From positions 157,680-221,679 of the IMG/VR virus record IMGVR_UViG_3300017971_000190: 64,000 bases of DNA. The stretch is one strand, 5' to 3'. The notes beneath the pieces were generated by a model. The model saw nothing but the letters and a program-made list of their open reading frames with translations. It was not told the origin of the DNA and searched no databases. Shown piece after piece: positions 580 to 32,901 of the stretch. The stretch is from a virus. Position 1 is the stretch's first letter. The number at the start of each line of letters is the position of its first letter. The position numbers and the translations under genes are program-made.

Positions 580-1464
580 CTATTCTAAAAATCCAGCTCT
601 GCTCCACTGGTCAATCATTTTCTTCACAGCTTCAGTAGCACTATTTCCTTCTGTATAGTCAGCAACACCGTAGGCTCCATCGTAAGGTTTACCTTCCATT
701 TCACTCAGGTAGGCTTTGTATTCGAAAAAGTCGGGTAGTCCACCGCCTTCTTCACTTTCGGGATCGTCATAGAATCCTGTTTGGTAAATATCTATGGTAG
801 CTACTGGTGCATCTGCTCTACCAACATCGTGCCAACGTGGTTCTTGAGCAGAAACCTTTAATCTATTAGCTGGAACCGGTGTGTCAATTACTGCAATGTC
901 AGCGTACTCTAACTGTCTTAGAGCTTCTTGAAGAGGTTTTCCTTTTAGGAGCTGGGAAAGTGATTTAACTCCTTCTTCACCGAAACCAGCATGGTACTCT
1001 AAATCTGTACCCCAATCTTCTTGAACTACTTCTGCCAATTCATCCAGTACACGGTCTTTAGAATGATGTTCCAAAGGAGTAATATAAAGCTGAGTAGGTT
1101 CTTCTAAGTAGTTTACCCAAATATAAGCTACTTCATCTTCAGAAGTAATGGCTACTTTTTTACGTCGCCTTACACTAGCTGTGGCTTCTAATCCTACAAC
1201 ACCAGCCATGGTATCATTCAATTCTAAAAACGAATCTAGAATTTTGTCTTCAACAACTCCGTCTAGTTTATGGAGGATTTTGTTGCTCTGATCGAACTGC
1301 TTACCCATGGTTGCTTTGTAAGCATCTGTGAGCGTTTTAACGATTTTGCCGCTTGCAGTTTCAAACTGCTGTAGCAGCTGTTGCAGCTGGGCTTCTCGGC
1401 GTTGGCTTGCTAAGTGCCTGCGATTTTTCATTTTCCTGATTGTCCCTTCAATTGCGATAGCCAT
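580..1464 (-). CDS. Unrecognised late protein with internal R-rich motif
   Basis: 294 residues. A helical, glutamine-rich N-terminal part (about 1-95) is followed by an R-rich segment, SVRRRKKVAITSEDE, and then an acidic C-terminal domain (about 115-294). The R-rich join resembles the one in many proteins of this region and may be a cleavage site or module boundary. Two starts are plausible: ATG at 1464, just after the previous stop, or ATG at 1431 (MKNRRHLASQRRE), which has an in-frame purine-rich site and itself begins with a basic RRHLA motif. Probably a virion component by context; function unknown. Confidence 0.65.
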   Translation of the reverse strand: MAIAIEGTIRKMKNRRHLASQRREAQLQQLLQQFETASGKIVKTLTDAYKATMGKQFDQSNKILHKLDGVVEDKILDSFLELNDTMAGVVGLEATASVRRRKKVAITSEDEVAYIWVNYLEEPTQLYITPLEHHSKDRVLDELAEVVQEDWGTDLEYHAGFGEEGVKSLSQLLKGKPLQEALRQLEYADIAVIDTPVPANRLKVSAQEPRWHDVGRADAPVATIDIYQTGFYDDPESEEGGGLPDFFEYKAYLSEMEGKPYDGAYGVADYTEGNSATEAVKKMIDQWSRAGFLE

Positions 1465-1465
1465 G

Positions 1466-1720: not shown

Positions 1721-1725
1721 TTGTT

Positions 1726-2182: not shown

Positions 2183-3016
2183 TTATCCTCCCATGACGTC
2201 TAGTTCAACTTCAAAAATAACTGTTTCATCTGCTGCGTGTACTTCAGCACTGTAGGGATAGTCACTTTCTTCTGCCCACTCCATGTTTAGACGACGAGGT
2301 GGATCCATATCAAGGTCATAAACAAAATACTCATTCACAAATCGTTTGATTTTAGGTTTAAGTGTTTGCAGTAGTTCTCTACTGTTCACCACAGCAGAAA
2401 GTAATTGGTGTTTTGAAGCATTGCTTAGATAACGGAAAAGCACTCGTCTTTGTTTACCAGCTAAACTAGCCAAACTTTGTCCACTTACTGCGAATCTAAC
2501 AGTAACAAGAGATATGAAGTCATTGTCTTCTGGTTCTTGGCCACTTGCAAATTCTATACCTTTTAGCTCTACATCGGAAGGATTTAAAACAGCAAACCTA
2601 TGGCGTCTCCTTAGCATGCTTGCAGCCTTTGGCCTTTCTACCACTGTTTCTGTGGTATCCTTTTTCAATTTTGTTTCTTGCTCGCCCCACCACTGAACAG
2701 CCAATTGCCACACTTTTTGCTCTAACAGACTTTGAAGAATGCTAAAAAGGTCAAGATAGTTCAACTCCTTAATAGGAGCAGTACCTAGTTTTTCGTTGTA
2801 GAAAAGAAGTTCGATTAATTCATTACCTGTTAGGTCATCTAAAGATGGTTTTGTTTTGAAAGCTGTGTTGGCATCTTTACCACTATCAACTTCTTTTTGC
2901 ACCTTTTTAAGATAATCGTCTACCAGCTTTTTTAAATCCGGACTGGGAGAGAAGGTTTGCGTACCTATTTCTCCTGGTTTAACTACTCTTGTGTATGCTT
3001 TTCTTTTTGGTCTCAT
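2183..3016 (-). CDS. Two-part late protein joined by an R-rich motif, 277 aa
   Basis: The N terminus is basic (MRPKRKAYTRVV), followed by a helical domain to about residue 130. A second arginine segment, ASMLRRRHRFAVLN, precedes an alpha/beta C-terminal domain. The internal segment includes an in-frame ATG at 2617, so the C-terminal part could be an ancestral separate gene or an alternative product; the Shine-Dalgarno there is weak (AAAGGC). No family recognised; context suggests a virion or head protein. Confidence 0.6.
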   Translation of the reverse strand: MRPKRKAYTRVVKPGEIGTQTFSPSPDLKKLVDDYLKKVQKEVDSGKDANTAFKTKPSLDDLTGNELIELLFYNEKLGTAPIKELNYLDLFSILQSLLEQKVWQLAVQWWGEQETKLKKDTTETVVERPKAASMLRRRHRFAVLNPSDVELKGIEFASGQEPEDNDFISLVTVRFAVSGQSLASLAGKQRRVLFRYLSNASKHQLLSAVVNSRELLQTLKPKIKRFVNEYFVYDLDMDPPRRLNMEWAEESDYPYSAEVHAADETVIFEVELDVMGG

Positions 3017-3536: not shown

Positions 3537-4998
3537 GCATTTTTAAAACTTCTACAGCATCTTCTATTTTTTCGTCCGCTTCTCTAAACATGGTTAAAAG
3601 CTCCTCTAATTGAGGACCCTCAAATTTTTTACTATTGCCGTAGGCCATGCGCAAAAGTACAGGGAGTCTATCTAAAATAGGAGTAAGACCACCAACTATA
3701 CTACGAATGTCATCTTCGACATCTTCATACTCATATCGTACAGCAACTTTTCTTCTACGTCGTCTCAACATTGCTTTTCTCCTGTTCGCTACCAAAGGTT
3801 CGTACTTTTTGTTTTCTTCTACCGCTTGAGCAGCAGCTTCAAAAGCTGGCCCTAAAACTGCATTTTCAATATCTTTAAGATAGTTGTAAATATTTTCTTC
3901 GTTTTCAGATCCGGGCGTTAATTTAAAAAGTATACCAGAAATTTCTCTGGAATAGTCATAATAATCTAAAGAACTAACGTCTCCTGTTCCACTTGTTTCA
4001 GCCCATGTTACAACTTGAGCAATTTCGTAAATCCAATTTTCTACAAGTTGATCAAACTGACTCCAGAGATATTCTCCCGCTTCACTGTCAACAAACCAAT
4101 CTTCATACTGGTTTAATTTGTTTTCTATAAAGGGAGTAATGGCCTCAACTACGGCCTCCTCTACTTGAGGATCGTTGTCGTAAAACTCTGCTCTCCTCTT
4201 AACACTGGCTGCTTTCTGTTCTGCTTGCTCATCTTCTTCAGCACTGTACTGCAAAACTTGGGCGGCAAATTTTTCTAGCTCTTTAAGTACTTTGGAGGTT
4301 GTCTGCTTAGCAGCTGTACCTGCTGTTTTGAATAGCTCTGCTTTTAGTTTACTAGCTTCGTCTGTGGGATCTACTTTTTTAAGCTTCTTTTTACTTTTCT
4401 TGCTTAAACCATGTTCCCAAATAGATTTAGCCAGAGCACCAGTTACCTTACCCAATTTTCTTTCAACGGTAGTTTTCTGACTTCCCCACGTATCAGGATC
4501 TACACTTTCTAGCACACCTTTAAGAGCAGTAAAATAAGCAATACGGTCAATAATATCATAAGCGTGGGTTCTATCTAAAATCTCTTCTGTAGATTCTCCG
4601 GTAGTAACGCTTATCCATTTATCTACAACTTCAACAGCAGCATTGTAGACAAAATCAAAAGAGCCCATGAGGAGTTTGGATCCAGCTTTTACTGCTTGAT
4701 CTACATATTCTTTTTGAGCCCCAGCTTCCTGACCTTTCATGAAGCTTTTTAAAAGGTCTGTTACTGTTTCTCCAAATAGATTTTTCCCTTTGTGCTTTTT
4801 GAATTCTTCTATTTTAGAGGGGTTAATAGCTGCTTGAACAATAAAATAAGCAAGTCTTTTATTTACTAAAGCTTTAAAAGCAGGGGATAATTTTTTAGGA
4901 GAAGCAATTGCAGCTCGGCAAACTTTACCAAGCTCGAAAAAATGAGAGGGATTTTCTAAAAATGGTAAAAAATCCCGAACTGCTATATTGATAGACAT
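3523..4998 (-). CDS. Large helical late protein with R-tagged C-terminal module, 491 aa
   Basis: Predominantly helical and Lys/Glu-rich. Near residue 410 it holds RRKAMLRRRRRKVAVRYEYED, after which comes an 82-residue helical module. That join carries ATG at 3771 with AGGAG seven bases upstream, essentially identical to the starts of the free-standing MLRRRRR genes. A second, internally initiated product is therefore possible, as is proteolytic separation after the arginine run. Probably virion-associated; no known family recognised. Confidence 0.65.
   Translation of the reverse strand: MSINIAVRDFLPFLENPSHFFELGKVCRAAIASPKKLSPAFKALVNKRLAYFIVQAAINPSKIEEFKKHKGKNLFGETVTDLLKSFMKGQEAGAQKEYVDQAVKAGSKLLMGSFDFVYNAAVEVVDKWISVTTGESTEEILDRTHAYDIIDRIAYFTALKGVLESVDPDTWGSQKTTVERKLGKVTGALAKSIWEHGLSKKSKKKLKKVDPTDEASKLKAELFKTAGTAAKQTTSKVLKELEKFAAQVLQYSAEEDEQAEQKAASVKRRAEFYDNDPQVEEAVVEAITPFIENKLNQYEDWFVDSEAGEYLWSQFDQLVENWIYEIAQVVTWAETSGTGDVSSLDYYDYSREISGILFKLTPGSENEENIYNYLKDIENAVLGPAFEAAAQAVEENKKYEPLVANRRKAMLRRRRRKVAVRYEYEDVEDDIRSIVGGLTPILDRLPVLLRMAYGNSKKFEGPQLEELLTMFREADEKIEDAVEVLKMLATL
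3769..3785 (-). promoter_or_regulatory. In-frame internal ribosome-binding site and ATG at 3771
   Basis: The minus-strand sequence reads AGGAG, seven bases, ATG, followed by codons for LRRRRRKVAV. It lies within the 491-residue gene. Initiation here would give an 82-residue protein of the same type as the small R-tagged genes. The site is seen in the sequence; its use is an inference. Confidence 0.5.
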
Positions 4999-5283: not shown

Positions 5284-7302
5284 CTATTTTCTGCGGTGTT
5301 TACGTGGTCTATGACGCCATTTTTTACCCTCTACACGATCTGCCAAACTAGCACAGAATGCCCCCGGATCTGTAATCTCTGGATCACCTTGTAGTTCTTC
5401 AACACAAGAACTAACGCTACCACCCATACTATTCCAGTAGCTCTCTAAACTATCTTTGTCCCACCCCTCAGGTAAACTTTCCCACTTTCTACCCGTTCTA
5501 TGAGGACGACCACGACCACAACAAGAAGTGCGATGACGATGATGGCTTTGGGAAAACGTAGCTGATACTAAATTCATGTTACTGCAATAAAAAGCTAAAC
5601 GGTTTGCTTCGGTGTCGTTTTTGGGGGCTAAATCATTAAATTCGTCACCGCTTTCATTTTCTGCGTGCCACCCTGAATTGTCTTTGTAAATTAAAACCCA
5701 CATATCTTCTTCAATATTAGACAGTCTACGATCATAAAAATCATAAAGACAAGACAATGGCACATCAAATTCTGAATAATCTGAAAATGAATCAGCTTTT
5801 CTGTGACGTTTTCTAGCAATACGCTTTGCGTAAGCTTCTCGTTCAGCATCATATTCGGAGACGTAGTCTTTGACTACACTCCAAATGGCGTCACTTTCTT
5901 TTTTATTGTAGTGAAGGGTGGTATCACCAAGGTGTTCTACTACTGCTTTGACAATAGTATCAACTTCATGCCCCAGCTCAGCTCCGCGTTCAATTATGCG
6001 AGCTACGTGAGGATCTCTTTTCCAATTAATCATTTGTGAAGCTGTAGATGCATATCTATAGTCAATTTCTTCAAGTGTGGCATCAATATCTTTGAAGTAA
6101 AGAGTAGGGTAATAATGATTCTCATTGGCCCATTCTTTTATGAACTCAATAGCTTCATCCTGGTTATTAAATACACCAATTAATTCGTCATCAATTTCAA
6201 GTTGCACTTCAGAACCAAATTCATCGGTGTAACGAAGAAAAGCATCACCTCTACCAGCAAGTCTACGTCGTCTTCGTCTAAAGTTACCCTTACGGTCTTT
6301 TTTCCTACTAATCATAATTTTGCCCTTTTCGCTTTTAGTTAAAGCAGTTGTTTCCTTTTTGTCGTATTCTTTTCGGTAAACCCTTTTACCGTAAACGTTA
6401 TCCACGTACCAATCTTTAACACCATACTGCTTAGCCCACTTCTTTAACTCAGAGACACTTATAAATTCCAACTCTTTTTTCTGTTTAGCTTTATCTTTTG
6501 GTACATCATCACCGTACTTATCTTTTTTAGCCAATCCACCAGCCACTTCAGCTTTGCTAGGATTACCAGGAACTAATAAGTATTGTTGGCGTCTACGGTG
6601 CCAGTACACTTTCCCGGTTTTAACCTCTTCTGGATCTCCCCACCGCTCCAACTCTTTAATAAGAGGTTTTTCTCCAGAGAACCAATGTATTCCTTTAATT
6701 TCAGTTGCTACTCTACGACGACCCATTGTATTAAAATTCCCTTTATGAGTTTTGAAATTACTACCGGAATTAAAAGGATCTATGCGGTCAATTTCCAAAT
6801 AAATTTCAAAAAGGTCGGGTTCAAGTACGTGACCAGCACTATTTACTAACCATATTTTAGACACTTCAGGATAGTCACCGTCTCTATTTAAAGCTGGTTT
6901 AGGTAAACCATCCCAGTAAACTGTTGCGCTCAATTCTTCTTCTGACAATTCAGTTAACAGGTCTTCAGCATTCCAATCTAAGCCTGTTTGGTCTTCAACT
7001 GTATAAGAAGGATCTATTACTTGTTCCAGCACTTCTCTTAGAGTTGTGGGGTTTGTTTGCGCTTGTTTTAAAATCATGTTTTCAGCTTTCCTGGCTAACT
7101 CTACACAGACACCGTCATTTACACCGTTTTGTTGTCGAATTAAACTGTGAAGCTTATCTAAATCTTCACGATAAGGGTAACGGTACATAAGCTGTTCAAT
7201 GTAAATTTCCGCACCTTGACAATCCACAACAGAATTAGAGTTAGGATACCAGGTTACCCGAGGAGTAAACGGATAAACAGGACCAGTGTAAGCTTTTTTC
7301 AT
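5284..7302 (-). CDS. Mosaic virion-type protein with several R-rich joints, 672 aa
   Basis: At least four modules are separated by arginine-rich segments: TMGRRRVATEI (about residue 192), NFRRRRRRLAGRGDAF (about 342), ARKRHRKADSFSDY (about 495), and a basic C-terminal tail ending in RPRKHRRK. The C-terminal part holds 'LPEGWDKDSLESYWNSMGG' and 'DPGAFCASLADRVEGK', a signature I recall from other phage structural or head-associated proteins. In-frame ATGs at 6726 and 6315 lie at two joints, the latter after AAAGGGCAAAATT. Likely a head-internal or structural polyprotein; exact role unknown. Confidence 0.65.
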   Translation of the reverse strand: MKKAYTGPVYPFTPRVTWYPNSNSVVDCQGAEIYIEQLMYRYPYREDLDKLHSLIRQQNGVNDGVCVELARKAENMILKQAQTNPTTLREVLEQVIDPSYTVEDQTGLDWNAEDLLTELSEEELSATVYWDGLPKPALNRDGDYPEVSKIWLVNSAGHVLEPDLFEIYLEIDRIDPFNSGSNFKTHKGNFNTMGRRRVATEIKGIHWFSGEKPLIKELERWGDPEEVKTGKVYWHRRRQQYLLVPGNPSKAEVAGGLAKKDKYGDDVPKDKAKQKKELEFISVSELKKWAKQYGVKDWYVDNVYGKRVYRKEYDKKETTALTKSEKGKIMISRKKDRKGNFRRRRRRLAGRGDAFLRYTDEFGSEVQLEIDDELIGVFNNQDEAIEFIKEWANENHYYPTLYFKDIDATLEEIDYRYASTASQMINWKRDPHVARIIERGAELGHEVDTIVKAVVEHLGDTTLHYNKKESDAIWSVVKDYVSEYDAEREAYAKRIARKRHRKADSFSDYSEFDVPLSCLYDFYDRRLSNIEEDMWVLIYKDNSGWHAENESGDEFNDLAPKNDTEANRLAFYCSNMNLVSATFSQSHHRHRTSCCGRGRPHRTGRKWESLPEGWDKDSLESYWNSMGGSVSSCVEELQGDPEITDPGAFCASLADRVEGKKWRHRPRKHRRK
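6313..6330 (-). promoter_or_regulatory. In-frame internal Shine-Dalgarno-like site and ATG at 6315
   Basis: The minus strand reads AAAGGGCAAAATT then ATG, translated in the long frame as 'KGKIM'. This matches the leader of free-standing R-tagged genes such as the one starting at 11324 (GGAGGTAAAATC-ATG). It may be a relic of a gene fusion or a working internal start. Confidence 0.4.
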
Positions 7303-8185: not shown

Positions 8186-8467
8186 TTACCTTCTAAAACG
8201 TCTGCGTCGTCTAACCGAACCACCCCGTTGTCTAAACCGTTGTTCGTTAATAGCAGTTTTTAATTTTGCAGCAGCATCTTCCAACCACTCTTCTAAGGTC
8301 TCGGCTTCATTATCTGTTAAAAGATCTGGTCTAAGTCGAGCCTGGTATACAAACTCTGCAATGTCTTTTGCGTCTCTTTCAATGAGTTTGGCAAGTTGTC
8401 TAATGTGACGAAAGGCGAATTCTCTATCACTGAGGGCTAAATGTCGTCTTCTGCTTCTTCTTAACAT
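8186..8467 (-). CDS. Small R-tagged protein MLRRSRRRHLALSD-, 93 aa
   Basis: ATG at 8467 is preferred over an upstream in-frame start because the protein then begins with MLRRSRRRHLALSD, the leader used by at least five other genes here, and it no longer runs into the upstream coding region. A helical body follows, and the C terminus is again basic (RQRGGSVRRRRRFRR). Both ends are therefore arginine clusters, which would suit DNA or RNA binding or processing by a protease. Function unknown. Confidence 0.6.
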   Translation of the reverse strand: MLRRSRRRHLALSDREFAFRHIRQLAKLIERDAKDIAEFVYQARLRPDLLTDNEAETLEEWLEDAAAKLKTAINEQRFRQRGGSVRRRRRFRR

Positions 8468-8501: not shown

Positions 8502-10331
8502 TTACAGTCCGCGTTTGTACACATCTACACTATTTACTAATTCCCAAATTTTATCTGTTAATTCAAAAATAAAATTGGGTCCGGGATTTTCAATGTCCCC
8601 AGAATTAACACCTTCTTTAACCAAGTTTTTCATAATGGTCATAATATGTAAACTAGCATCCTCTCTAGCATCTAGGTAGCTTCGTGAAGGTTTGTAAGTT
8701 AAATCAGATTTTCTACGTCGTTTACTACTACGAGCAATAGATGGTCTGTGAGGAAAGTAAGACCTTATGAAATCTTGAACATCACTTCCCCCGTATACTA
8801 CGTCGCCTTTTACATCGGTAATGGATTCATCTGATCCTAGTTCACCATACAACCAAGATTCTAATTCTTCATCCTGCATCATTGTAGCAACATCTTTTTC
8901 TATGTTACCTGTTAAATTAACACCGGGAAGGATGTAAAGCGTACCATATTCGTCTTCTGTTACTTCTATTTGTGAAGGGTCAAAAGCGGCTTTTCTACGT
9001 CGTCTTAAACTAGAAGTTCTAATTGTGTCTTTAACCACTGGGTAACCGTATGGTAACTCCTGGTAAAATCTTCTACGTGGGGTTATTTTTTTCAGATACC
9101 TAACTATGCTTTCTTCTCTACGACTACTATAACCGTCTATGGCATAAATATTGTCACCTTTTTTAACAGCAATTACTGTACCACCCAAACCCATACTTTC
9201 TAGTTTTTCGCCGTCTGTCCATAAGGTTCCGACTCTACCACCGTCGTTAGGAACACCTTCAACAAAATCGTTTACCACTCTTTTATCAGCTGGTTTAAGT
9301 GCTGCTGTTCTAACTTTACTTTCCCTGACAACATACTCACTACGACTACTACACATAGTATATAACTCTGCGGCTTCAAGGTCGTTTAGTCTTGGAATAG
9401 TTTTTTGAATATCTCCTGTTGGGTCGTTACCATAATCAGTATTGGCGATCCATTTACCAGCTACGTGGAGCATATCTATAGGAAAGTTTTTAGTTACCCC
9501 AAATTGAGTTGGTTCCATTCGCAGAAAATCAAAGAGGCAAACAGCGCCTACTTCAAATTCAAGAGGAGCTACTCTGTCTGCACGACGTTCCTTGTGTAAT
9601 TTACCAACTGTAGTTCTACGTTTGCGTCCCATGATTTTGTTTCCTTTTCGTTGACTGGTAACTGGCATTTTAGGTGGTCTACCAGTAATGAGTGCTCTGG
9701 TGATGTCTGTTACTCTGTTAGGTCTTCTTACCTTCATGGCTGCTAAAGCGCTTTCTTTAACTAGTTCTTCGTTGTCGTAGGGATCAGCTGGGAAAGGGTG
9801 AGGTACGTCACCCTCTAATTGTGCCACCCAACTGGAGGCTTCGTCATCCCAGTAAACGGAAATAACATCGTCGTCCATGGAAAAACCTTTTTTGTCTTGT
9901 GGTCCGTACCTCAGCATGACGGTAGGAATTAACTCGTCTAGAGGTAACTCTTCACTGATAAGGTAATAGTCTTCGTGAGGGTAGTCTTCTTTTAATTTCT
10001 TAGTTAGTTTATTTCTGGCTTCTTCAACGCAACTTACAAAAGCGCTACCAAAAACACCGCGTTCACCACCAGAAAGACGATTATACTGTTCATCTAACCA
10101 ACGGTCTGGAGCAGAGAGAAAATCAGGTTCTTCTCCACTAATTATAGAGCGTATGAGATGCATCCCGTTCGCCAGCCCATGCATGTAGGGGTTGACGTTC
10201 CAAGTACCGGGGCTACACTGAATGGCGAGTAAATCGTCAATGCTGTCTAACAAGGCTTTGGTTTCGTAGGTAGTAGGTGGTTCTACTTTAACATGTGGAC
10301 GAGAAATAAAGTTGAAATCACCCCACGGCAT
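8502..10331 (-). CDS. Mosaic late protein with three R-rich joints, 609 aa
   Basis: The N-terminal module (about 1-230) contains 'YMHGLANGMHLIRSI', a pattern I have seen in phage hypothetical proteins. Then comes 'GNKIMGRKRRTTVGK', an in-frame ATG at 9632 preceded by AAAAGGAAACAAAATC. Further joints are SSLRRRRKAAFDPSQ (about 443) and SSKRRRKSDLTYK (about 536). Each joint starts a new domain. The arrangement suggests fused small genes or a polyprotein processed during head maturation. No enzymatic motif recognised. Confidence 0.65.
   Translation of the reverse strand: MPWGDFNFISRPHVKVEPPTTYETKALLDSIDDLLAIQCSPGTWNVNPYMHGLANGMHLIRSIISGEEPDFLSAPDRWLDEQYNRLSGGERGVFGSAFVSCVEEARNKLTKKLKEDYPHEDYYLISEELPLDELIPTVMLRYGPQDKKGFSMDDDVISVYWDDEASSWVAQLEGDVPHPFPADPYDNEELVKESALAAMKVRRPNRVTDITRALITGRPPKMPVTSQRKGNKIMGRKRRTTVGKLHKERRADRVAPLEFEVGAVCLFDFLRMEPTQFGVTKNFPIDMLHVAGKWIANTDYGNDPTGDIQKTIPRLNDLEAAELYTMCSSRSEYVVRESKVRTAALKPADKRVVNDFVEGVPNDGGRVGTLWTDGEKLESMGLGGTVIAVKKGDNIYAIDGYSSRREESIVRYLKKITPRRRFYQELPYGYPVVKDTIRTSSLRRRRKAAFDPSQIEVTEDEYGTLYILPGVNLTGNIEKDVATMMQDEELESWLYGELGSDESITDVKGDVVYGGSDVQDFIRSYFPHRPSIARSSKRRRKSDLTYKPSRSYLDAREDASLHIMTIMKNLVKEGVNSGDIENPGPNFIFELTDKIWELVNSVDVYKRGL
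9630..9648 (-). promoter_or_regulatory. In-frame internal Shine-Dalgarno-like site and ATG at 9632
   Basis: AAAAGGAAACAAAATC precedes ATG and the codons for GRKRRTTVG. Initiation here would give a 376-residue protein. The translated leader 'RKGNKIM' closely resembles the in-frame leader 'TEGNKIM' ahead of the real start at 32901. Confidence 0.45.
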
Positions 10332-10333
10332 TT

Positions 10334-10603
10334 TTAGTCTCCGTAAACACCCACCAAACGATACTCGGTTATGGTTACTAAATTACCGTGATAAAGAAGA
10401 TCGTTTTTCCTACCTGTTGGTTCTGCCTCTAAGCCGTAGCCTTGATTTTCACCAAAATAATTTTCATCAAACCAGATCACACTTTGAAGCTCTCTTGCAA
10501 CACTGTAAGGGTCTTCCAATTCATCTTCTTTAACCCAAAAGGTTGTTCCTTCAGATAAACGAGCTTTTGTAGCTGCTACTCTACGGCGTCTTCGTTTTAG
10601 CAT
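10334..10603 (-). CDS. Small R-tagged protein MLKRRRRRVAATKA-, 89 aa
   Basis: Starts at ATG 10603 after AGGAG. The first eight residues are almost all Arg or Lys, followed by VAA and a small acidic alpha/beta domain ('WVKEDELEDPYSVARELQSV'). This is the archetypal free-standing member of the R-tagged set. The strong charge contrast between tag and body suggests that the tag is a separate functional element: a DNA-binding tail, a packaging signal, or a propeptide removed in the prohead. Confidence 0.7.
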   Translation of the reverse strand: MLKRRRRRVAATKARLSEGTTFWVKEDELEDPYSVARELQSVIWFDENYFGENQGYGLEAEPTGRKNDLLYHGNLVTITEYRLVGVYGD

Positions 10604-10630: not shown

Positions 10631-10984
10631 TTATGGCATATCTAAGTACGCCCAACCTTTACTATCAAGTTCGTCTTCTATTTCTTTTTGTGAAAGGATT
10701 AACCCTTCTCTGCTTCCAACATCACGTAGTAGTTGTTTTAAATCCGTTATTGGTTGTTCTCCAGACCACTTAACCTTAAAGTTTTCTTCATCGCCTAAAT
10801 CTGTATGACTAAAAATTGCCGCTATGCCAATAGCATCGTCAATTGCTTCTTGTAGTTGTCTTGAGTTTATCGCTACTATTTCAAATACGTAAGGTTTAGA
10901 TTTATCTTTCGAGGTAAATACTTCTAAATAAGTGTAAACATATGTATATTCAGCAGCCATTCTGCGTCGTCTTCGTCTTAACAT
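10631..10984 (-). CDS. Small R-tagged protein MLRRRRRRMAAEY-, 117 aa
   Basis: Begins at ATG 10984 with AAGGAG upstream. The N terminus is MLRRRRRRMAAEYTYVY, followed by an acidic alpha/beta domain with no recognised motif. Gene order and leader are shared with its neighbours at 10334, 11001 and 11339, so four such genes stand in a row. A virion-internal role is plausible but not shown. Confidence 0.7.
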   Translation of the reverse strand: MLRRRRRRMAAEYTYVYTYLEVFTSKDKSKPYVFEIVAINSRQLQEAIDDAIGIAAIFSHTDLGDEENFKVKWSGEQPITDLKQLLRDVGSREGLILSQKEIEDELDSKGWAYLDMP

Positions 10985-11338: not shown

Positions 11339-11557
11339 TTATCCCTGAGAACACCAAACAGAACCGTTACCGTCTTCATCAGCGTCCATCCAAACCTCAC
11401 CAAAGGCTTCACTGGCTTCAGTTAGCTGTGTGGCTTGAGGTTCAGACCAGTCACCAGCTTCATCTAAAAATTCATCAAACAGGTAACGAAGTTGTGCACT
11501 AGCTTCAAAGGGAGAAACAGCAGCTAATCGTCTTCTACGTCTATGTCGTCTTAGCAT
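11339..11557 (-). CDS. Small R-tagged protein sharing a domain with the next gene, 72 aa
   Basis: Start at ATG 11557, preceded by AAAGGAACTGTC, giving MLRRHRRRRRLAAVSPFEAS. The body contains 'EPQATQLTEASEAFGEVWMD', which matches the C terminus of the 534-residue protein upstream ('DPLDRQMYEASEAFEMDLYG'). Both resemble a domain common in phages with the sense GAGFxDGDWP...LTExSxxFGExDLYV. This one is a short, degenerate copy lacking the GAGF part. Confidence 0.65.
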   Translation of the reverse strand: MLRRHRRRRRLAAVSPFEASAQLRYLFDEFLDEAGDWSEPQATQLTEASEAFGEVWMDADEDGNGSVWCSQG

Positions 11558-20605: not shown

Positions 20606-22924
20606 TTAACCTAATTCATCTCTACGGACATACCCCGTAAGAGTTTTATTATGAGGAAGACTTCTCTCTCTATTAGAGAGAATGTTCCTAAATTGATCAA
20701 CAGAAAGTGGCCTTATTTCATTTTCATTGTGACCACTTAATCTAGCCAGGGCGACTAATTCATTAGCAATCGCTTTTGTCATTCTACCATTCATGCGGGT
20801 AGTAATATATTTACTGAGTAGACTATAGATTTCAGAACTGAGTTCAACAGGAGGAATATAACCTAATCGTATAGCTATATAAAGTATGGATTGCGCTTGA
20901 ATATCATTAAATCCTTCTTTGCGTAAGCCTTTATAAAGAGTAGAAGCTAATTTAATTCTTTCATCTTCGTGAGGATCTGTTTGAGCCACCTTGTAAAGTA
21001 CTTGTGCAATACGTCTTTTTGGTAAAGAGAAAAATGTTTCATTTTCATCCCAAAGCGGAAGTTCACTCAATAAACCAATAATATCTTTTCCAAGTATTCG
21101 ATAGTTAGATTTCTTAACACGATGAGGAGCAGCGTAAACTTCTTTGGTCGGTTTTTTGGGTTCAACTGGAAAACGAGCATGGTCTAAAGCAGCTCCAGCA
21201 CCTTCTTCACCAGCAGGCGCTTCGGCAGGGGGGGCAGGTTCTTCACCGAAACCACCCCCGGGTTCTTCACCGAAACCACCACCAGGTTCTTCTCCAAAAT
21301 CAAATCCTTCTTCCTCTCCAAAACCACCACCACCTAAACCACCTTCTTCTCCTTCACCCCCAACGTAAGTATCGTTTTCATCAAAACCCATTTTAGTACG
21401 AAGTTCAGCAACAGCTCGTTTATACTCGTACATTTTCTTACGAGTTTCTAAATCGCTTTTTGAATTTTCTAGTTCTTCATCAATATCTAAACCGCCTGCT
21501 TGGTAGAAGGTACGCATATTTAAAATGCCACCCTCTTCTTTAAGAGTGCGAAGAAGCTCCATATAAGCTTCATCACGAGTAGGAGTAAGAGGTCTACTCC
21601 ACTCGATTTTGGGAATGATTAAATCACTAACAGCTTTATTTTTGGGTCTAGCGATTCTGTAACGGTGATTTATTTCTGCCGTTTTCCTTTTAACAAAATC
21701 TTCTTGTTCTGACAACTGACGACACATTTTATCAATTATAATTTTTTTGGTAAAATAAGAACGAAGGTATTGTAGTTTTTCAATAAAGACCGTTCTAATG
21801 GTCTCCATACTATTCCAATTACTTTCACCAGTAACCAGTGTTTCACTAACTCCTAAAGCCCTCATTTTTCCTTCAACAAGGAAAGGCCATTCGTCAGAGA
21901 ATTTCCAGTAATCAGCAGAACCACCACCAACACTGGTAACTTCAACATCTTTTTTGGTTACAACTTTAGCTCCAACTGGATCTTCTTCACTAGCGAAGAA
22001 CAGATCTAACAATTCTTGAAGCTCTTCAGGAGTAGCTCCTTCAGGACCAGTAATATGAAGGAGGGGGCCAGCTCTACGACGAGCACCAGCAATAGATGCG
22101 TTATAAATAGCACTTTCATAAACCTTAAAAATGAGAACTCTGTTAAGATAACTACTGCCTTTACAATCCCAAGAGAAAGCACGACGGGGAAGGAAAATAG
22201 TATTTTCAGGAGACAGCGGAATCTGCTTTCCAGCTGCCATTAATTTAACAATTACTGGATCTATTTGAAGACGATCTTCCACCACTCGGGGGTCTTTAGA
22301 CGTTGCCCAAGATCTTTGTTCAGCTGTTGGTTGAATATCGATAATGGCGTTCCCACCAGGAGTTTCAGGATACTGAATAGAAAGGAAATTCAAATTGTGC
22401 GCAATTACTCCATCCCAATAATTAAGGCTATCGTTATAAAGCAGGTGAGCTACAAATTTACCAAAAGTAAGGAAGTCATGTAACAACTCTGGCATAAGAG
22501 GAATCATGCCACTAGAGTAAAGAGCATCTTCAAAAAATTGTTTTTGATAGGAATCAACTACACCGCTAACAATGATATCTTCAGAAAAAGCAAGATCTTT
22601 CCAGTATTCTAAAGTAGGACTAACAATTGGATCAAATGTAGCAATTTCCTCGTACATTTTATTCTGACTGGCGCTATCACCAGGAAGAAATTGCTCTCCT
22701 AAAGTAGGAGCTTCAGCGCGATCTGTAACAGGGCTATATTCTTGATTTAAATTACCAGCAGCTGGGGTTAAAGAATTACCATAACCAAAACCGCCAACAC
22801 CATAGCCTCTTCGTTGTATAGCTCCCAAACGCTTTTTACGTTGTGTGCTACTAGCTCCGATAGCTCTTCTAGAAGAGCCTCTTCGGAGTCTCCCTTTTGT
22901 AAGGTCATAACGGATGTTAAACAT
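20606..22924 (-). CDS. Portal protein, 772 aa
   Basis: The portal forms the dodecameric ring through which DNA enters the head. Support is its place directly after the large terminase, its length, and patterns typical of large-phage portals: 'DPIVSPTLEYWKDLAFSED', 'FLTFGKFVAHLLYNDSLNYW' and 'NSMETIRTVFIEKLQYLRSY'. The N terminus is strongly basic with RRAIGASSTQRKKRLG. After residue 515 comes an unusual Gly/Glu/Pro-rich linker with repeated GFGEEPGG units, then a helical C-terminal domain. AGGTGA precedes the ATG. A hairpin-rich leader lies upstream. Confidence 0.8.
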   Translation of the reverse strand: MFNIRYDLTKGRLRRGSSRRAIGASSTQRKKRLGAIQRRGYGVGGFGYGNSLTPAAGNLNQEYSPVTDRAEAPTLGEQFLPGDSASQNKMYEEIATFDPIVSPTLEYWKDLAFSEDIIVSGVVDSYQKQFFEDALYSSGMIPLMPELLHDFLTFGKFVAHLLYNDSLNYWDGVIAHNLNFLSIQYPETPGGNAIIDIQPTAEQRSWATSKDPRVVEDRLQIDPVIVKLMAAGKQIPLSPENTIFLPRRAFSWDCKGSSYLNRVLIFKVYESAIYNASIAGARRRAGPLLHITGPEGATPEELQELLDLFFASEEDPVGAKVVTKKDVEVTSVGGGSADYWKFSDEWPFLVEGKMRALGVSETLVTGESNWNSMETIRTVFIEKLQYLRSYFTKKIIIDKMCRQLSEQEDFVKRKTAEINHRYRIARPKNKAVSDLIIPKIEWSRPLTPTRDEAYMELLRTLKEEGGILNMRTFYQAGGLDIDEELENSKSDLETRKKMYEYKRAVAELRTKMGFDENDTYVGGEGEEGGLGGGGFGEEEGFDFGEEPGGGFGEEPGGGFGEEPAPPAEAPAGEEGAGAALDHARFPVEPKKPTKEVYAAPHRVKKSNYRILGKDIIGLLSELPLWDENETFFSLPKRRIAQVLYKVAQTDPHEDERIKLASTLYKGLRKEGFNDIQAQSILYIAIRLGYIPPVELSSEIYSLLSKYITTRMNGRMTKAIANELVALARLSGHNENEIRPLSVDQFRNILSNRERSLPHNKTLTGYVRRDELG
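21225..21345. repeat. GFGEEPGG-coding repeat in the portal gene
   Basis: Short tandem repeats encode three to four GFGEEPGG-like units between the portal's body and its C-terminal domain. The tract is low-complexity, acidic and probably flexible. It is an internal coding repeat, not a separate element. Confidence 0.6.
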
Positions 22925-23453: not shown

Positions 23454-25784
23454 TTAAAACCTTCCTCTGTTACCACCATTGTGGGATTGTCTTCTGGTTT
23501 GTTGTCGTCCTTGAGGGGAACGTCCTCTGCCTGATCGTCTAGCTCTACCACCACCGTAAATATATTTAGGAATATTAAACATTCCTGCAATTGGTTTATT
23601 GGCTCTTTTAAACCCCATTGCTTCCATACCAGCTCTACGGTATTTGAAACGGCTTTTCTTTTCAAATTCCTTTTTGTAAGATTTTATAAATCTGTGGGCT
23701 AGAACTGTAGTTCTAAAAAGGTCATCATTGCCAATATCGGGTTTAAATAATTTACGATTAAAAACATTAACAGTAAGTATTTGAGCTAGACAGTGAGAAC
23801 GAGGGTACATAGATCTCATCGCCAAATCTCTAGTTTTTAAAATAGAATCAATGTCGCTATCTTGAGTATTAAATCGTATCTTATTTCCGCCTAGGTCATG
23901 ACGGAAATTTTTGAAATCGTTAAAAGTCAAGCTGTAACGTTCGCTAATTACGTTGTGTTTAGTTCTTAAATCATAAAAAGCATGAGCACTTTGCCAACGG
24001 TCATACGCTACATAGAGTACATTGAATGAGTTAACAATAGGAACAATTACATTATCGTATGCCCAAGCTAAATCTACACTCATACCGTTTCTAGGAGCTA
24101 CCTCCATTAACTCTTCAATGTACGCACCATCCAACTCGGGAAGGTAACGAGCAAAAGTAAGAGCAAATGAATTCTTCTTTTCTCCGTTGTCAACAGCTAA
24201 AGCATAAGCATAGAGGTTGTTCTTTTTAGGAATTTTTACTTCTGGTTGAAGTGTTTGTAATCCTAAGTCGCTTTCATTTTCTTTTATGACGTAAGTAAAA
24301 GCTGGCTCTGGTTCGGTCATCTCATAAACTAAATCTTCTAGTAGAGTTTGATCTTTAAAAAACGGGTTACTTGCCTTTGGAGGAATAGCATAGAAATCAC
24401 GGAGAATATCTTCTTCCGGTTCTCCTGCAAATTCGTCTCTGATTGCTTCTTCTGTTTGTTTAGGGTTAACTTCCCAGGTAGCAAAATGCGTATAGTAAAT
24501 TCGAGGATTTTTAGCAGCCACTTCAGCCCGTTGCATGATCGGGTCTCCGATAGAAGACGGGCTACTAATGTTTGCCATTATTGCGTCTATGGCATTATAA
24601 TCTCCATTTTTACGTCTAATATCTGCTGCTGCACGAAGTGTTCTTAAATTATTTGTAAGAGAACGGAAAATAGCCGAACCATCTCGTACTCTTCTTTTTC
24701 TACCTTGATCATCATAATTAAACCATCCAAGCTCATCTATGATATTTATGAGACCTGTTTTTCCGCGAAGATTGGAACTGTTAGCTGCTGCCATAGAAAG
24801 AGCAAGACGTTTGCTAGGAAAGGTAAGAAATGTTTGCCCACTTTGAAAAAGATCTAAACCTAAACGTCTACCCTCATCTTTAAGGTAAGAGGCCACACTT
24901 TTAAACCAAGGACTACTGCGCAAAGCATCGCAAAACGGTACCCAAGAAAATTCGCTGCTCTGTTTGAGTGTAGGTGATACAAATGTACCACTCACAATTT
25001 TATTAGCAGGCTCATCAAAATAAGCCATTGGATTTTCAAGGGCAAGATAACGATGAATATGGTATGTAGCTACAAATGTAGAAGCACTGTGACTTTTACC
25101 GCTCCGCTGTCCCCAAATAGAGCACAGTTCATTAGGAGGTACAGGTCTTAATCTGGAAAGTGCATAATCTCCGTAATCATTATATTTGTGGAATTTTGGA
25201 TCCACAATCCATTCCTGCAACATCTCTGTTCTGTTACGTTTGCAGACAGGACAAACACCATGTTCTAAAAGAACAAAACGCTCCATAAGCTCGCCATAAT
25301 TAGCATCTACTGGAACGTCAAAAATATAATCTAAATCTGAACAACTATAACAAGCATCTCTATTAAAATGAACAACTACTTGAAATTGTTTTGCATAAGG
25401 TTTAGTAGAACTGTTTAAAAAAGAGGGACTAATAATCCAATCTATAATGTTAGACGCTTCTGGGAATTTTTGGTCTGCAAAAACTCCCATATCAAAATTA
25501 GAGTCAATAGCTTTCTCAATTAAATCTTCCGGATTAGGTAATTTGTCAGGATCTGAAGGAAGGGAGTCAAAATTAACTACATCGTAAACAACATTGAAAA
25601 AGTCAATTTCTTCTATTGTAGGAGTAGGTAACTCGGTAGTAATTAATTCTGCGACTAATGGTGATTTCTTTTTCTTTTTACGACGTTTTTTCTTTTTTGT
25701 TTTAGTCTTGTCCTTTTTAGATGCACTTTTGGGCATCTCCTGAACAGCATTGATTTTAGGAGAAAGGAAATCTACTTTTTTCAT
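23454..25784 (-). CDS. Large terminase subunit (TerL), 776 aa
   Basis: DNA-packaging ATPase/nuclease. Walker A is GQRSGKS at 225-231 and Walker B is INIIDELGWF, with the catalytic pair at 350-351. The C-terminal nuclease begins near 'YALAVDNGEKKNSFAL'. Two additions are notable: a likely zinc site formed by CYSC (145-148) and CPVC (178-181) ahead of the ATPase, and a very basic N terminus of Lys/Arg. The C terminus ends in an RG-rich tail (RGRSPQGRQQTRR). It lies directly before the zinc-ribbon and portal genes. Confidence 0.9.
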   Translation of the reverse strand: MKKVDFLSPKINAVQEMPKSASKKDKTKTKKKKRRKKKKKSPLVAELITTELPTPTIEEIDFFNVVYDVVNFDSLPSDPDKLPNPEDLIEKAIDSNFDMGVFADQKFPEASNIIDWIISPSFLNSSTKPYAKQFQVVVHFNRDACYSCSDLDYIFDVPVDANYGELMERFVLLEHGVCPVCKRNRTEMLQEWIVDPKFHKYNDYGDYALSRLRPVPPNELCSIWGQRSGKSHSASTFVATYHIHRYLALENPMAYFDEPANKIVSGTFVSPTLKQSSEFSWVPFCDALRSSPWFKSVASYLKDEGRRLGLDLFQSGQTFLTFPSKRLALSMAAANSSNLRGKTGLINIIDELGWFNYDDQGRKRRVRDGSAIFRSLTNNLRTLRAAADIRRKNGDYNAIDAIMANISSPSSIGDPIMQRAEVAAKNPRIYYTHFATWEVNPKQTEEAIRDEFAGEPEEDILRDFYAIPPKASNPFFKDQTLLEDLVYEMTEPEPAFTYVIKENESDLGLQTLQPEVKIPKKNNLYAYALAVDNGEKKNSFALTFARYLPELDGAYIEELMEVAPRNGMSVDLAWAYDNVIVPIVNSFNVLYVAYDRWQSAHAFYDLRTKHNVISERYSLTFNDFKNFRHDLGGNKIRFNTQDSDIDSILKTRDLAMRSMYPRSHCLAQILTVNVFNRKLFKPDIGNDDLFRTTVLAHRFIKSYKKEFEKKSRFKYRRAGMEAMGFKRANKPIAGMFNIPKYIYGGGRARRSGRGRSPQGRQQTRRQSHNGGNRGRF

Positions 25785-29126: not shown

Positions 29127-29498
29127 TTAGAACATGTGACTAGGCAGCTTCATACCAAGTGCGTGAGCTGCTTTGAAAATGTTGTTACGCATGAGGGAGA
29201 GACCCCACCGATCGCCATTTTCAATTACAGATCTCATGCGATTAAATGCTTCTAGTTCATTTCTGGTTAACTCGAATTTATTGTAGAAGTACTCATAAAC
29301 TTTATTTAACAATTCAACAGACTGTTCATCTTTATCTAAAACATCAACAGTATCCACATACGCAGTTACATCTACAAGGGCTTCGATAGCACTTTCAGCT
29401 CTTCGTTGCCTAGCAGCTAAACGTGAGCGACGAATACGTTTACGTCGCCTCCAGGAAGAATTATTTTTTGCCAATCTTGGTCGTCTGCGTTTTAACAT
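29127..29498 (-). CDS. R-tagged protein with double arginine cluster, 123 aa
   Basis: ATG at 29498 is preceded by AAGGAG and gives MLKRRRPRLAKNNSSWRRRK. A second cluster, RIRRSRLAARQRRAESAIEAL, follows at once, so the first 40 residues are extremely basic. A helical domain follows. This is the only R-tagged small gene upstream of the terminase; two successive motifs ending in RLA are consistent with two processing or binding units. Confidence 0.65.
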   Translation of the reverse strand: MLKRRRPRLAKNNSSWRRRKRIRRSRLAARQRRAESAIEALVDVTAYVDTVDVLDKDEQSVELLNKVYEYFYNKFELTRNELEAFNRMRSVIENGDRWGLSLMRNNIFKAAHALGMKLPSHMF

Positions 29499-29508: not shown

Positions 29509-32500
29509 TTAAAGTTCTTCGCCTTCGTAACCATGAAGGTAATTTCTTAGTTCATACATATCTTCTTCATCTGCAAAGAAAACAAGAGCTAGCCTACCTG
29601 TGTCTTCATCCAAAGTAATTTCGTAACTTCCAGCTGGGAGTTCGCTGTAACCACTGTTCATAGGCATAACAATATAACGGGTAAGGGCACTTTGTAAATC
29701 TTCTTCACTGGCTTCAGAACCCAACTTTTTACGTAAATCGTAGTGTTTGACTACAGTCCAAAACTCTTCATCACTAGCGTTGGCAGGTAAAATTTCGTCT
29801 ACCTCAAATTCCATAGAGTCAGCTTCGCCTTCATAGGCGTCACTGTAATTGAGGTGGTTAAGTACGTGGCCATCGAAAACAGCTACGTCGTCTTGGAGAT
29901 CGTAACGAGCCATAATCTTCCTCCGTTTGAAAGAGGCTTCCATTTCCCACGGAATAGGTTTAACAGGCTTCTTTTTACGACGACGTTTTCTTTGTTTTAG
30001 AGCTTTATCTGTAACAGGCCACAACGTTTTCTTCTCTAAAGCCAACTCAAAAATATCAGCAATAATTTTGTCGTGAAGATACCATTTATCATTTTTATCA
30101 TAACCTTCTTCCAAACGCTCTTTAGCAAGTCTATTAGACGTATCCTTATTTCGTCTAAGGTCATTAAAATCTCTATGTGCTGCTAACCAAGCAGCTCTTT
30201 CATCTATTTGCTGTTCGGTTAAATCAACAGGCATAATATCGCCATGAGGCATATGAGGTTTATCGTACCAATCAACTGGTCTCTCATTGTCAATTATACG
30301 TGCTTTTTTTCGGAAAGTAGATCCTCTTCTTCCCTTACCAAAAGTATTTACCAAACCTTGACAATCTGCATCAGGAGGACAGTAAAATACCATGACTAGT
30401 CTATTAGCGTCGTCTACAGTAAACTGGTAACGACCACCAAACTCAGCTAGTTCACTGTTGCCTTGATTAAGGGGTGTAGCAATATTGTAGTTTAAGCTGT
30501 TCACGACGAACATGCGAAGTTCTTGAAGGTCTCCGCTACTTCTTAAACTATCGGGAAGTGAGAGTCCCTCTTTCTCGGCCATAATCTCCCACTCATCCCA
30601 AGGGGCATCCCAACTAATAAGCGTATCAAGTACGCAATCGAGATGATCAATAGTAGATTTCCTAGCTTGCTCTCTAAGACACTGTTTGACCATGTCATCA
30701 TAATGGTGAGGTCTAAGGGGCATTGCTTGTCTACGTCGTCCACTACGCCTAACTCTACCTTCTCTACTATGTTCTTTTCTAAACGCCTCAACAGCAAATT
30801 CTAAAGCCTGACCAGCAACCTTGTCACTAAGATCAAAAAGCTGTTCATGCAGTGTAAAGTCACTGGACATGAGAGCTAAAATTTCTTCTCCCTCAATGTC
30901 CATGGCACAAAGTTCATCCCAAGTACCTTCACATTCCCACGTACCAATACCACTACCAGCTTCTTCCCAAACAGCGTAGAGAATACCATCATCTTCATCC
31001 ATAAGGAGATCATAAGCTTCTTCTTTTTGGTCCGGTGTTAAACTGGTGTTGGAAGCCAGATATTTTTTAACAGCTGCTTTCCATTTCTGCACCCAAGCAT
31101 TTTTAAATTGTTCTGTTTCCGCCCAAAGTTCATCGTGTAAATACTCAAAAGCGTGATTTACATAATCACCCCAATCTTGATAAAAAGTGTCTAACATTAC
31201 TTCAAGTTGAGCATCACTTAAAGACTCAACTTGTTTGGGGTAAGTCTCTCTGGCAAATTTTACACCTTCACTGCCTTCCAGTTCTTGACCTTCACTTTCA
31301 ACAACAGTGCTTTCAATTTCTTGCATGAGCCCTTCCATAAGGGTTCTAGCATGATGATAGTAAAGAGCTATTTTACGACGCATTCTTGCTTTCCCTTCCA
31401 ACCTTAATTGTTGTTGACGAGGGTCAACACCTTCGGTGTATTCTTTAACTAGATGCCAAATTGGATGGGAAGGATCAAGGTAATCGTCACCCCAATTTTC
31501 CGCCATTTCCCGGACTATATCTTCGGTAGAGAGGTATTTATCTCTAGATAATTTTTGTATGTTTTTTCTAATATCTTCTTCAGTACCGTGAAAAATAGAA
31601 CCAAATTCTTCTTCAGCCTTTTCTTCTTCCATTTCTTTAATTTTATTTTGCACAGCGTGTTGCGCTAAACTACGTGATGCTTTCATATCTTCTTGAATGC
31701 TTTTCCATTCTTCTTCACCAGCACTAGCAGTCACGTTTTTAATTTCTGGCCAGAGTAAACTTTCTACTTCACCTTTTAACTGACTTTCGTTTACATCTTC
31801 ATGCCAGAGAGAATCTACAATGTCATTCTGATAAGTATCAAAATCACCCCACTCAGAAACTCCACCAATGGCGTCAAAGAAAGCTTGGTCAGCAGCATAA
31901 TCTCCCATATTTTCTATGGCTTGTCTAACTTTGCCTTCTGCTAAACTCCACGGATCTTCCTCATTTCCCACTTTAGAGATTAATTGTGCCAACGTATTTT
32001 CAATCCAATCTTCAACAGTACTTTTAACATCATCTAAGAAGTAGTCAGGACTAGGAGCGCTGTCATAAATGGCACTGCTGTAAACTTCTTTAAGAACGTC
32101 TAGCATGAGTTTAGGGTCATCACTAGCAGGAAGTTCTTCAAGTTCTACTAAACGTAGGAAGTCATCTTTATCTAGAACCTCCATCTCATCAGCATACAGC
32201 TGATGATAAATAGAATTCTGATAATCTTCACCCCAGTAACCCGCTGTTCTCTTAAAAGCAGCCACCAAGGATTTAGCAAAAGCTTGTTTCATTTGAAACA
32301 TTTCGGCACTGACTTTTTTACCTTCCAAATCCCAACTAGCAAGAGCTTTAGTTTCTGGACCACCGTGCTCAATACCTGCCTCAGTGATATAAGCTTTAGC
32401 TGGTACAGGAAGTTCAAACTCATCGAAGTCTTTGCTACTGGCTGGGCGCAAACCAAATTTAGCTAGTTCATCAGCAGTTACATGAGTTTTAGTCGGAATA

Positions 32501-32901
32501 GCATTTTCTGGTGTGAGCAATTCTACCTCAAAAATCTGTCTATCACTATCGTCTACATTGATACTTCTAACGTAGAGGAAGGGATAACGATCTTCAGCAG
32601 CATCAGCGTAGTACCACTTGTTCTTTTCTAAATTAAGTCTGCTAGCGTTTCGCTTTTTAGGTTTCTTAGAGCTGCTTTCTATTTCCTGAAGACAGCTGCA
32701 GCGAGCTACTTTTAAATCATACTTAGTAGCAAAAGCTTCTAATTTAGGCAAGTCTGCTACTTTAACATTATTTAAACCAATAGTAGCTTCGTTAGTAGAA
32801 AAAAGAGAAGCTCCTCTTTCCTGTAACAAAGGTTTGGCTTTTTCTACAGCCCCTGGAGCACCAGTTAAAGTGACAGCCCCATAAAATTGGACTTTACTCA
32901 T
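29509..32901 (-). CDS. Giant mosaic late protein with several R-bordered modules, 1130 aa
   Basis: ATG at 32901 is used because GAGGGAAATAAGATC precedes it; ten in-frame upstream residues are then leader. Modules: a small alpha/beta N-terminal domain (YGAVTLTGAPGAVEKAK, which looks like an ACT- or BRCT-sized fold), SSKKPKKRNASRLN, a long acidic helical region, RMRRKIALYYHHA (ATG 31383), RVRRSGRRRQAMPLRP, a pair of related C-terminal domains ('NYNIATPLNQGNSELAEFGG' and 'RYIVMPMNSGYSELPAGSY'), and between them FKRRKIMARYDLQDD (ATG 29913). No enzyme motif recognised; the virion is the likely location. Confidence 0.65.
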   Translation of the reverse strand: MSKVQFYGAVTLTGAPGAVEKAKPLLQERGASLFSTNEATIGLNNVKVADLPKLEAFATKYDLKVARCSCLQEIESSSKKPKKRNASRLNLEKNKWYYADAAEDRYPFLYVRSINVDDSDRQIFEVELLTPENAIPTKTHVTADELAKFGLRPASSKDFDEFELPVPAKAYITEAGIEHGGPETKALASWDLEGKKVSAEMFQMKQAFAKSLVAAFKRTAGYWGEDYQNSIYHQLYADEMEVLDKDDFLRLVELEELPASDDPKLMLDVLKEVYSSAIYDSAPSPDYFLDDVKSTVEDWIENTLAQLISKVGNEEDPWSLAEGKVRQAIENMGDYAADQAFFDAIGGVSEWGDFDTYQNDIVDSLWHEDVNESQLKGEVESLLWPEIKNVTASAGEEEWKSIQEDMKASRSLAQHAVQNKIKEMEEEKAEEEFGSIFHGTEEDIRKNIQKLSRDKYLSTEDIVREMAENWGDDYLDPSHPIWHLVKEYTEGVDPRQQQLRLEGKARMRRKIALYYHHARTLMEGLMQEIESTVVESEGQELEGSEGVKFARETYPKQVESLSDAQLEVMLDTFYQDWGDYVNHAFEYLHDELWAETEQFKNAWVQKWKAAVKKYLASNTSLTPDQKEEAYDLLMDEDDGILYAVWEEAGSGIGTWECEGTWDELCAMDIEGEEILALMSSDFTLHEQLFDLSDKVAGQALEFAVEAFRKEHSREGRVRRSGRRRQAMPLRPHHYDDMVKQCLREQARKSTIDHLDCVLDTLISWDAPWDEWEIMAEKEGLSLPDSLRSSGDLQELRMFVVNSLNYNIATPLNQGNSELAEFGGRYQFTVDDANRLVMVFYCPPDADCQGLVNTFGKGRRGSTFRKKARIIDNERPVDWYDKPHMPHGDIMPVDLTEQQIDERAAWLAAHRDFNDLRRNKDTSNRLAKERLEEGYDKNDKWYLHDKIIADIFELALEKKTLWPVTDKALKQRKRRRKKKPVKPIPWEMEASFKRRKIMARYDLQDDVAVFDGHVLNHLNYSDAYEGEADSMEFEVDEILPANASDEEFWTVVKHYDLRKKLGSEASEEDLQSALTRYIVMPMNSGYSELPAGSYEITLDEDTGRLALVFFADEEDMYELRNYLHGYEGEEL
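29911..29926 (-). promoter_or_regulatory. Strong in-frame internal ribosome-binding site and ATG at 29913
   Basis: The minus strand reads CGGAGGAAGATT then ATG GCT CGT TAC. GGAGG six bases from an ATG is as good as any authentic start in the window. It opens a final module of about 134 residues that repeats a domain found earlier in the same protein. Independent translation of this module is likely on sequence grounds. Confidence 0.55.
31381..31398 (-). promoter_or_regulatory. In-frame internal Shine-Dalgarno-like site and ATG at 31383
   Basis: GGAAGGGAAAGCAAGA precedes ATG and the codons for RRKIALYYHHARTL. It is another basic module start inside the 1130-residue gene. Spacing from the GGAAGG core is slightly long. 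Confidence 0.35.

Follow-up and report, generated by a model that had tools for sequence, protein, structure and literature searches.

The head-gene block of a large uncultured phage

The phage analysed here is a large uncultured virus of bacteria with a record of 221,679 bases (221.7 kb). The window, by which we mean the whole stretch of 64,000 nucleotides that was analysed first, covers bases 157680-221679 of this record. The remainder of the record was also taken in, and ORFs were called mechanically across its full length. Positions are those of the window unless they are marked as genome positions.

The head genes form a block at genome 137-178 kb. In the order of transcription, the block begins with the terminase large subunit (23454-25784, minus strand; phrog_17415, E=3e-94) and the portal protein (20606-22924, minus; phrog_16240, E=8e-73), followed by small genes, a scaffold-like protein (17532-19400, minus) and a prohead (head maturation) protease of 283 aa (16570-17421, minus; phrog_18299, E=2e-38). 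Downstream of the protease, about 27 kb are taken up by genes that are mostly tagged; then come a minor structural protein (phrog_16710), the major capsid protein (MCP; genome 146172-147311, phrog_2522, E=5e-47) and further tagged genes. The catalytic residues of the protease, His155 and Ser208, were invariant among seven homologues and also in an alignment of five. The scaffold-like protein consists of Arg-run segments, a very acidic stretch with a net charge of -21 and -23 over two consecutive 50-aa segments, and a conserved C-terminal domain, the latter one being kept in every clade member tested.

Several other genes of the window were recorded in passing. A solitary plus-strand gene at 47258-48346 encodes a diverged paralogue of the MCP (27% identity), and in the relative G002 a shorter gene of MCP-like type lies at 9166, near a second cluster of tagged genes. 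By eye, a minus-strand gene at 34645-35568, amid tail-region genes, encodes a patatin-like phospholipase (GGGSKGAF... SGVSVGALEAG). The protein at 48392-48964 (minus) carries four tandem DDAPKKRRGRPPKKKAA repeats resembling an AT-hook or histone tail, and a low-complexity ORF with MMTTMMTT repeats is located at the end of the record (63568-63993, minus).

A short arginine-rich tag recurs on head-block proteins

About two dozen otherwise unrelated proteins around the capsid-maturation protease share a tag composed of an Arg run, one further residue and Ala. The original prediction had placed this motif in about 15 proteins at 1150-32901; the motif is real, while the set is larger and reaches outside the window to genome 137-158 kb. 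By way of correction, long genes like 29509-32931 are part of other late modules, and their basic runs are not clearly tags. Tags were listed from simple patterns and the weak ones partly by eye; the main statistics given below are independent of the weak tags.

All six N-terminal motifs that had first drawn attention to the series were recovered at their positions, the true start often lying downstream of the longest-ORF start. These are, all on the minus strand like the other tags of the window described here and with a slash set after the tag, MLRRSRRRHLA/L (8435-8467), MLKRRRRRVA/A (10574-10603), MLRRRRRRMA/A (10955-10984), MLRRRLHKN (11298-11324; without Ala, SD AAGGAGGT upstream), MLRRHRRRRRLA/A (11522-11557) and MLKRRRPRLA/K (29469-29498), the last one followed by WRRRKRIRRSRLAA at 29412-29453. 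The protein tagged at 8435-8467 also terminates in an Arg run, SVRRRRRFRR (8189-8218). Further N-terminal tags are MRKRRQA/L (1700-1720), MRPKRKA/Y (2996-3016), the basic (V/M)RVRRVKKVTA/KT (19618-19650) of a 65-aa protein at 19453-19650 and SLRYKRIKIA/QDPPEE (20543-20572) of the protein at 20219-20599.

The internal motifs quoted earlier (AMLRRRRRKVAV, NFRRRRRRLAG, SLRRRRKAAF, SVRKRKAAPY and DRRRKAEED) are likewise all present. Internal tags comprise SVRRRKKVA/I (1150-1176), RKRHRKA/D (5794-5814), SLRRRRKAA (8985-9011), SVRKRKAA (13609-13632) and the pair LRRKGIKTA/Q and DRKRKA/G (12316-12525) in the protein at 11599-13203, whose N-terminal half is conserved clade-wide. An in-frame SD-like sequence accompanies MLRRRHRFA/V (2591-2617), MLRRRRRKVA/V (3742-3771), MISRKKDRKGNFRRRRRRLA/G (6256-6315), MGRRRVA/T (6706-6726) and MRYRKRQA/N (14830-14853); GNKIMGRKRRTTVG (9603-9632) is also start-like, with the SD AAAAGGAAAC. 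The scaffold-like protein carries a cluster of Arg runs (RRRRRA/QEDD, RRRRRRFS and DRRRKA/EED; 18786-18899) as well as MSLRKRRTRRSRLA with an in-frame start-like SD (18981-19022).

Outside the window, the series continues past the MCP to genome base 137131, and the tags at genome 137-158 kb include MRRRRRFA, MKIRPLRRRFKTA/Q, MKIRKLRIA/Q and MVRRRRRGNINLRRRMA. Some head-block proteins have no recognisable tag, and tags without Ala exist, namely MLRRRLHKN and the YxxV variants of the second tag type described below. Far from the head block, an outlying protein (genome 27611-28147, plus strand) that begins with MTLRRRRRRIRTIVADKE adjoins other probable structural genes.

Restriction of the tag to the head block and constraint at the peptide level

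The original prediction would have been contradicted by a tag occurring at random across non-virion genes. Instead, the block contains 18 runs of RRRR or longer, spread over 13 of its 44 proteins, compared with two in the 273 other ORFs of the genome. When the block proteins were shuffled with their composition kept, such runs averaged 0.7 and never exceeded 3; for the shuffled rest of the genome the average was 0.4. The Ala is enriched as well: of the 119 basic runs counted in the block, 35 have it two residues past their end, against a background of 8.4% (p=3e-11). Outside the block there was no Ala excess at this position, Ala being absent from the six commonest residues there. Ala-Gln following a basic stretch was also over-represented, with 11 occurrences in the 13 kaa of the block and 9 in 56 kaa elsewhere.

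The protein bodies do differ, as had been claimed: BLAST similarity was detected between only two protein pairs within the block. As the bodies are mostly without mutual similarity, the tag has not been inherited along with them. The Arg codons of the tags are mixed (AGA, CGT, CGC, CGA and AGG), which rules out a DNA-level repeat as the source of the tag and indicates that the constraint acts on the peptide.

Internal tags resemble former gene starts

Nine in-frame ATGs of tags deep inside long ORFs are preceded by SD sequences with a mean strength of 4.2, whereas the remaining internal ATGs of the block average 2.1 (p=3e-6). This strength equals that of real gene starts; one example reads AAAAGGAAACAAAATC-ATG-GGACGC, in the protein context ...GNKIM-GRKRR. 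Because the deep internal tags follow ATGs with start-like SDs, the long genes look like fusions, and the simplest reading of the sequence is that they arose by fusing small tagged genes, most internal tags being former start sites. Modules also move between proteins. Residues 125-243 of the product of the gene at genome 140721, located between two Arg runs, correspond to residues 96-214 of the product of gene 51680 in the relative G001. As in polyvalent proteins, single polypeptides thus combine several unrelated domains that are reshuffled among relatives.

The same SDs could mean that the internal tags are live translation starts, so that long ORFs would yield a fused protein together with separate modules and the separation would be translational and not proteolytic. 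The nine deep ATGs are what this explanation would predict, but many internal tags (among them SVRRRKKVA, SLRRRRKAA, SVRKRKAA and RKRHRKA) lack an ATG, so that it is not the whole explanation, and we consider it unlikely. Alternatively, small genes with a common start region may have recombined and fused, with the tag being a mere junction mark without peptide function. The start-like SDs ahead of deep internal tags and the extensive module shuffling among relatives would fit such scars, but the mixed codons place conservation at the amino-acid and not the DNA level. Moreover, a functionless scar would be expected to decay, rather than to stay near consensus in unrelated proteins or to be swapped wholesale for another conserved tag, and we regard this explanation as quite improbable.

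Relatives carry an unrelated tag in the same head block

Protease alignments gave 77 and then 80 viral contigs. In relatives of this phage (G000), the same head block carries a tag unrelated to the Arg run, P-x-x-[IVL]-x-[YF]-x-G-x-x-Y-x-x-A, hereafter the YKG-type tag. It was present in all 15 loci whose protease is 47-52% identical to that of the window, some of these loci being near-copies of one phage. A single outlier, L155, has about ten YKG tags flanking a protease that is only 38% identical, and neither tag was found in the remaining examined loci with proteases of 33-42% identity. In G002 (105.7 kb; locus L030), the YKG regular expression matched 41 times in 32.6 kaa, compared with 19 times in 70.5 kaa of G000, and 23 of the G002 matches have Ala three residues past the second Tyr. 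In G002 the tags are concentrated in the head block, with two more clusters outside it.

Trees group G000 with the YKG-tagged phages (support 99/97 for the protease, 94/95 for the MCP and 100/100 for the portal). None of the three trees gave a resolved order of G000 relative to G001 and L152, and the direction of change between YKG-type and Arg-run tags was not polarised. No comparable Arg-run series was seen in the cultured cousins Dickeya JA29, Pseudomonas KoPa-5, NCTB, Vibrio GR11A and Salmonella Sen-NF (proteases 30-38% identical). A 20-aa YKG tag had no match in cultured phages, the huge phage LR745208, which was matched by one module, showed no tag series, and GTDB genome contigs yielded no relative of the protease. 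Structure prediction for one YKG-tagged protein gave a mean pLDDT of 49, too low to be informative.

In a neighbouring lineage (L031, L034, L035 and L038), small head-region genes begin with an amphipathic LQKRhhxVAxxL, possibly a third tag type; the LQKRhhxVA motif occurs merely 2-3 times per 20 kb in phages of this kind. Among the tagged proteins of relatives, a YKG-tagged DNA topoisomerase IB of G002 (L107:17191-18705; Pfam PF01028, E=8e-15) is a surprising enzyme for a head-type tag. A phosphatase-like protein (L116:4603-5079; HCWGGISRS, weak match to the dual-specificity phosphatase family DSPc) is YKG-tagged, and its G002 homologue (15122) is apparently untagged. Other domain assignments to tagged modules are weak too, namely SprT-like (6e-5) and ParB_N (0.004) matches that both fall below the Pfam cut-off. 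ART-like segments were recognised by eye only, with no Pfam match, and no account of DUF5661 or DUF5662 was found in the open-access papers searched.

Tags are exchanged at orthologous junctions while the Ala is retained

One such exchange is seen in the 65-aa protein at 19453-19650. All eight aligned relatives of the same clade start with KLxYKGxxYxxA/[IK]T, with small variants, whereas G000 has VRVRRVKKVTA/KT. In the pair ...YKGRTYVLA/KTRED and ...VRRVKKVTA/KTTED, the tag is replaced, and the Ala and the residues following it are retained. The family of the protein at 20219-20599 (genome 177898) has YKG-type N termini in some members (KAQSVLYKGRVYVA/ADETD and KARSVLYKGRVYVA/AEEAD, the ADETD type reading SVLYKGRVYVA/ADETD at the junction) and others elsewhere, namely RIKIA/QDPPEE in the window, QKRIA/QDPLEE, SKLILA/QDV, FRREA/QDP and IQVEA/QDP.

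The tagged orthologues at genome 137131 and G002 72094 carry MKIRPLRRRFKTA and TPTIIEFRGAFYCIA, respectively, although their alignment begins only well past the tag. In a local alignment, the N-terminal module of the Arg-tagged protein at genome 142753 matched a part of the longer G002 protein 64994 that comes after a YKG tag. A small module with a conserved KDxDP has an Arg-type tag ahead of it in G000 and G002 69088, and a YKG tag in G002 60652, so that both tag types precede the same small module within one genome. In the window itself, the N-terminal MKIKVGSKTYIKKTA/Q (2137-2181, minus) resembles a degenerate YKG-type tag, its G002 orthologue having EEIQYKGCRYVLA.

Judged from these sequences, at least two tags can stand in for each other, the Arg run being one of them. 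The polybasic character is not conserved among orthologues, which have a YKG-type tag at the orthologous sites. The two unrelated labels swapped at the same sites form a natural experiment: the junction matters and the arginines do not. This bears on the idea that the tags are polyarginine segments of packaged proteins that bind DNA or neutralise charge, with no role as a signal. Nucleic-acid binding is a classical property of Arg runs, and packaging of these proteins along with the DNA is probable; however, the tag that relatives have at these junctions is not polyarginine, and DNA binding has no need of a fixed Ala two residues after the run. Because the replacement tag lacks an Arg run, DNA binding is disfavoured as the general role, and we consider it very unlikely.

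A proposed signal for head assembly

The motif had initially been read as a prohead-protease cleavage signal, as a DNA-binding or head-targeting tag, or as both, with cutting after packaging. Head targeting, with or without cleavage, has been strengthened by the Ala-retaining swap, the clade-wide co-occurrence with the protease lineage and the location of tags at N termini and module borders; DNA binding has lost ground owing to the non-polyarginine tag at the same sites.

We hold, with slightly more confidence than doubt, that the tag is a short exchangeable head-assembly signal: most likely a means of recruiting proteins to the prohead, and probably one that the prohead protease of the block cleaves behind the Ala. 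A signal read near the Ala is suggested by the restriction to the head block, the position of the tags, the retention of the Ala on swapping and the fact that the tags accompany a single protease lineage. Placed N-terminally in small proteins and at module borders in long ones, the tag would act as a signal peptide for head assembly, bringing presumptive internal or ejected cargo and the scaffold into the prohead. The protease encoded in the same block would then cut after the conserved Ala. If recruitment is joined by a cut behind the Ala, the fused genes would be polyproteins, as cutting at the module borders would split multi-module proteins into mature pieces. The tagged enzymes may be packaged and injected cargo, fitting the polyvalent-protein kind, and in related phages the YKG-type signal would serve in the same role at the same sites. 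The YKG tags of G002 in two clusters outside the head block speak against this proposal, as do the tags without Ala, the block proteins that have no recognisable tag, the preference for Glu of the cousin proteases with mapped sites, and the trees, which leave the direction of tag replacement unpolarised. The MCP alignment contains a conserved LxxA near residue 80, with no tie to cleavage.

A tag that serves for targeting alone would dock the protein on an acidic scaffold or core and remain uncut, with the Ala having a structural role at the end of a strand or helix. The scaffold-like protein contains strongly acidic segments, the Arg-run tags are strongly basic on mostly acidic bodies, and tags also stand at extreme C termini (G000 8189-8218), where cutting would gain little. 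The YKG-type tag, however, has hardly any net charge, which means that the two tags do not have charge docking in common, and what survives the swap is the Ala and the residues directly after it. We find targeting without cutting rather doubtful.

For the preferred signal that is also cut, we propose a wider generalisation tentatively: a lineage of jumbo phages may label dozens of virion proteins with one peptide, replaced genome-wide between lineages with the Ala kept, and its protease may cut after Ala at N termini and between modules to give packaged polyproteins. If true, this lineage-wide label could be read from sequence and would allow the head proteome to be predicted for uncultured phages; it would offer a route for loading chosen proteins into the large capsids of laboratory phages; and it predicts a prohead protease that cuts after Ala rather than Glu. 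To our knowledge, how large phages other than T4 select head-bound proteins is poorly understood.

Comparison with known systems

In T4, internal proteins and Alt join the core via an N-terminal CTS, which is later removed by the protease (PMC5694885). Like the CTS, the tag is a short N-terminal element on several non-homologous proteins of the head cluster, encoded together with a prohead protease and a scaffold, and the recruit-then-remove logic is the one proposed here. In contrast to the T4 element, the tag marks far more proteins, can also stand between modules or at a C terminus, and comes in two unrelated sequences that replace one another.

Giant phages are likewise thought to recruit and then remove, using longer propeptides (PMC10052503). 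SPN3US (gp245) and phiKZ resemble the present phage in that many head proteins are processed by a prohead protease, and SPN3US gp53 and gp54 agree in all of their first 15 residues while being only 34% identical as proteins. They differ in cleavage at A-X-E, in propeptides mostly longer than 100 residues and in having no genome-wide common tag. The cousin phage PaBG, whose protease is related, offers a further parallel: its MCP is shortened by about 20%, and multiple proteolysis sites occur in several of its virion proteins (PMC7412058).

Polyvalent proteins combine disparate enzymatic domains in a shuffled, multi-domain architecture; their packaging and injection have been predicted, and processing has been proposed for them (Iyer et al. 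2017; PMC5512222). As far as the consulted part of that paper goes, processing is ascribed to zincin domains inside the proteins, and a shared short tag between modules is not described. The modules of this phage, for their part, mostly have no assigned identity. Our comparison covers the open-access literature, and an earlier description of either tag is possible.

The cousin proteases with mapped sites (T4, phiKZ and SPN3US) cut after Glu, not Ala. A capsid maturation protease that cuts after Ala is herpesvirus assemblin, which matures the scaffold. We know of no multi-protein tag in that system, and its likeness to the protease of this phage would be one of function. T4 propeptides are cut after Glu, while the constant residue of the tag is Ala; as the junction residue is Ala, the tag is not a member of the Glu-specific CTS class and is better described as a variant, one with a probable CTS-like mode of action.
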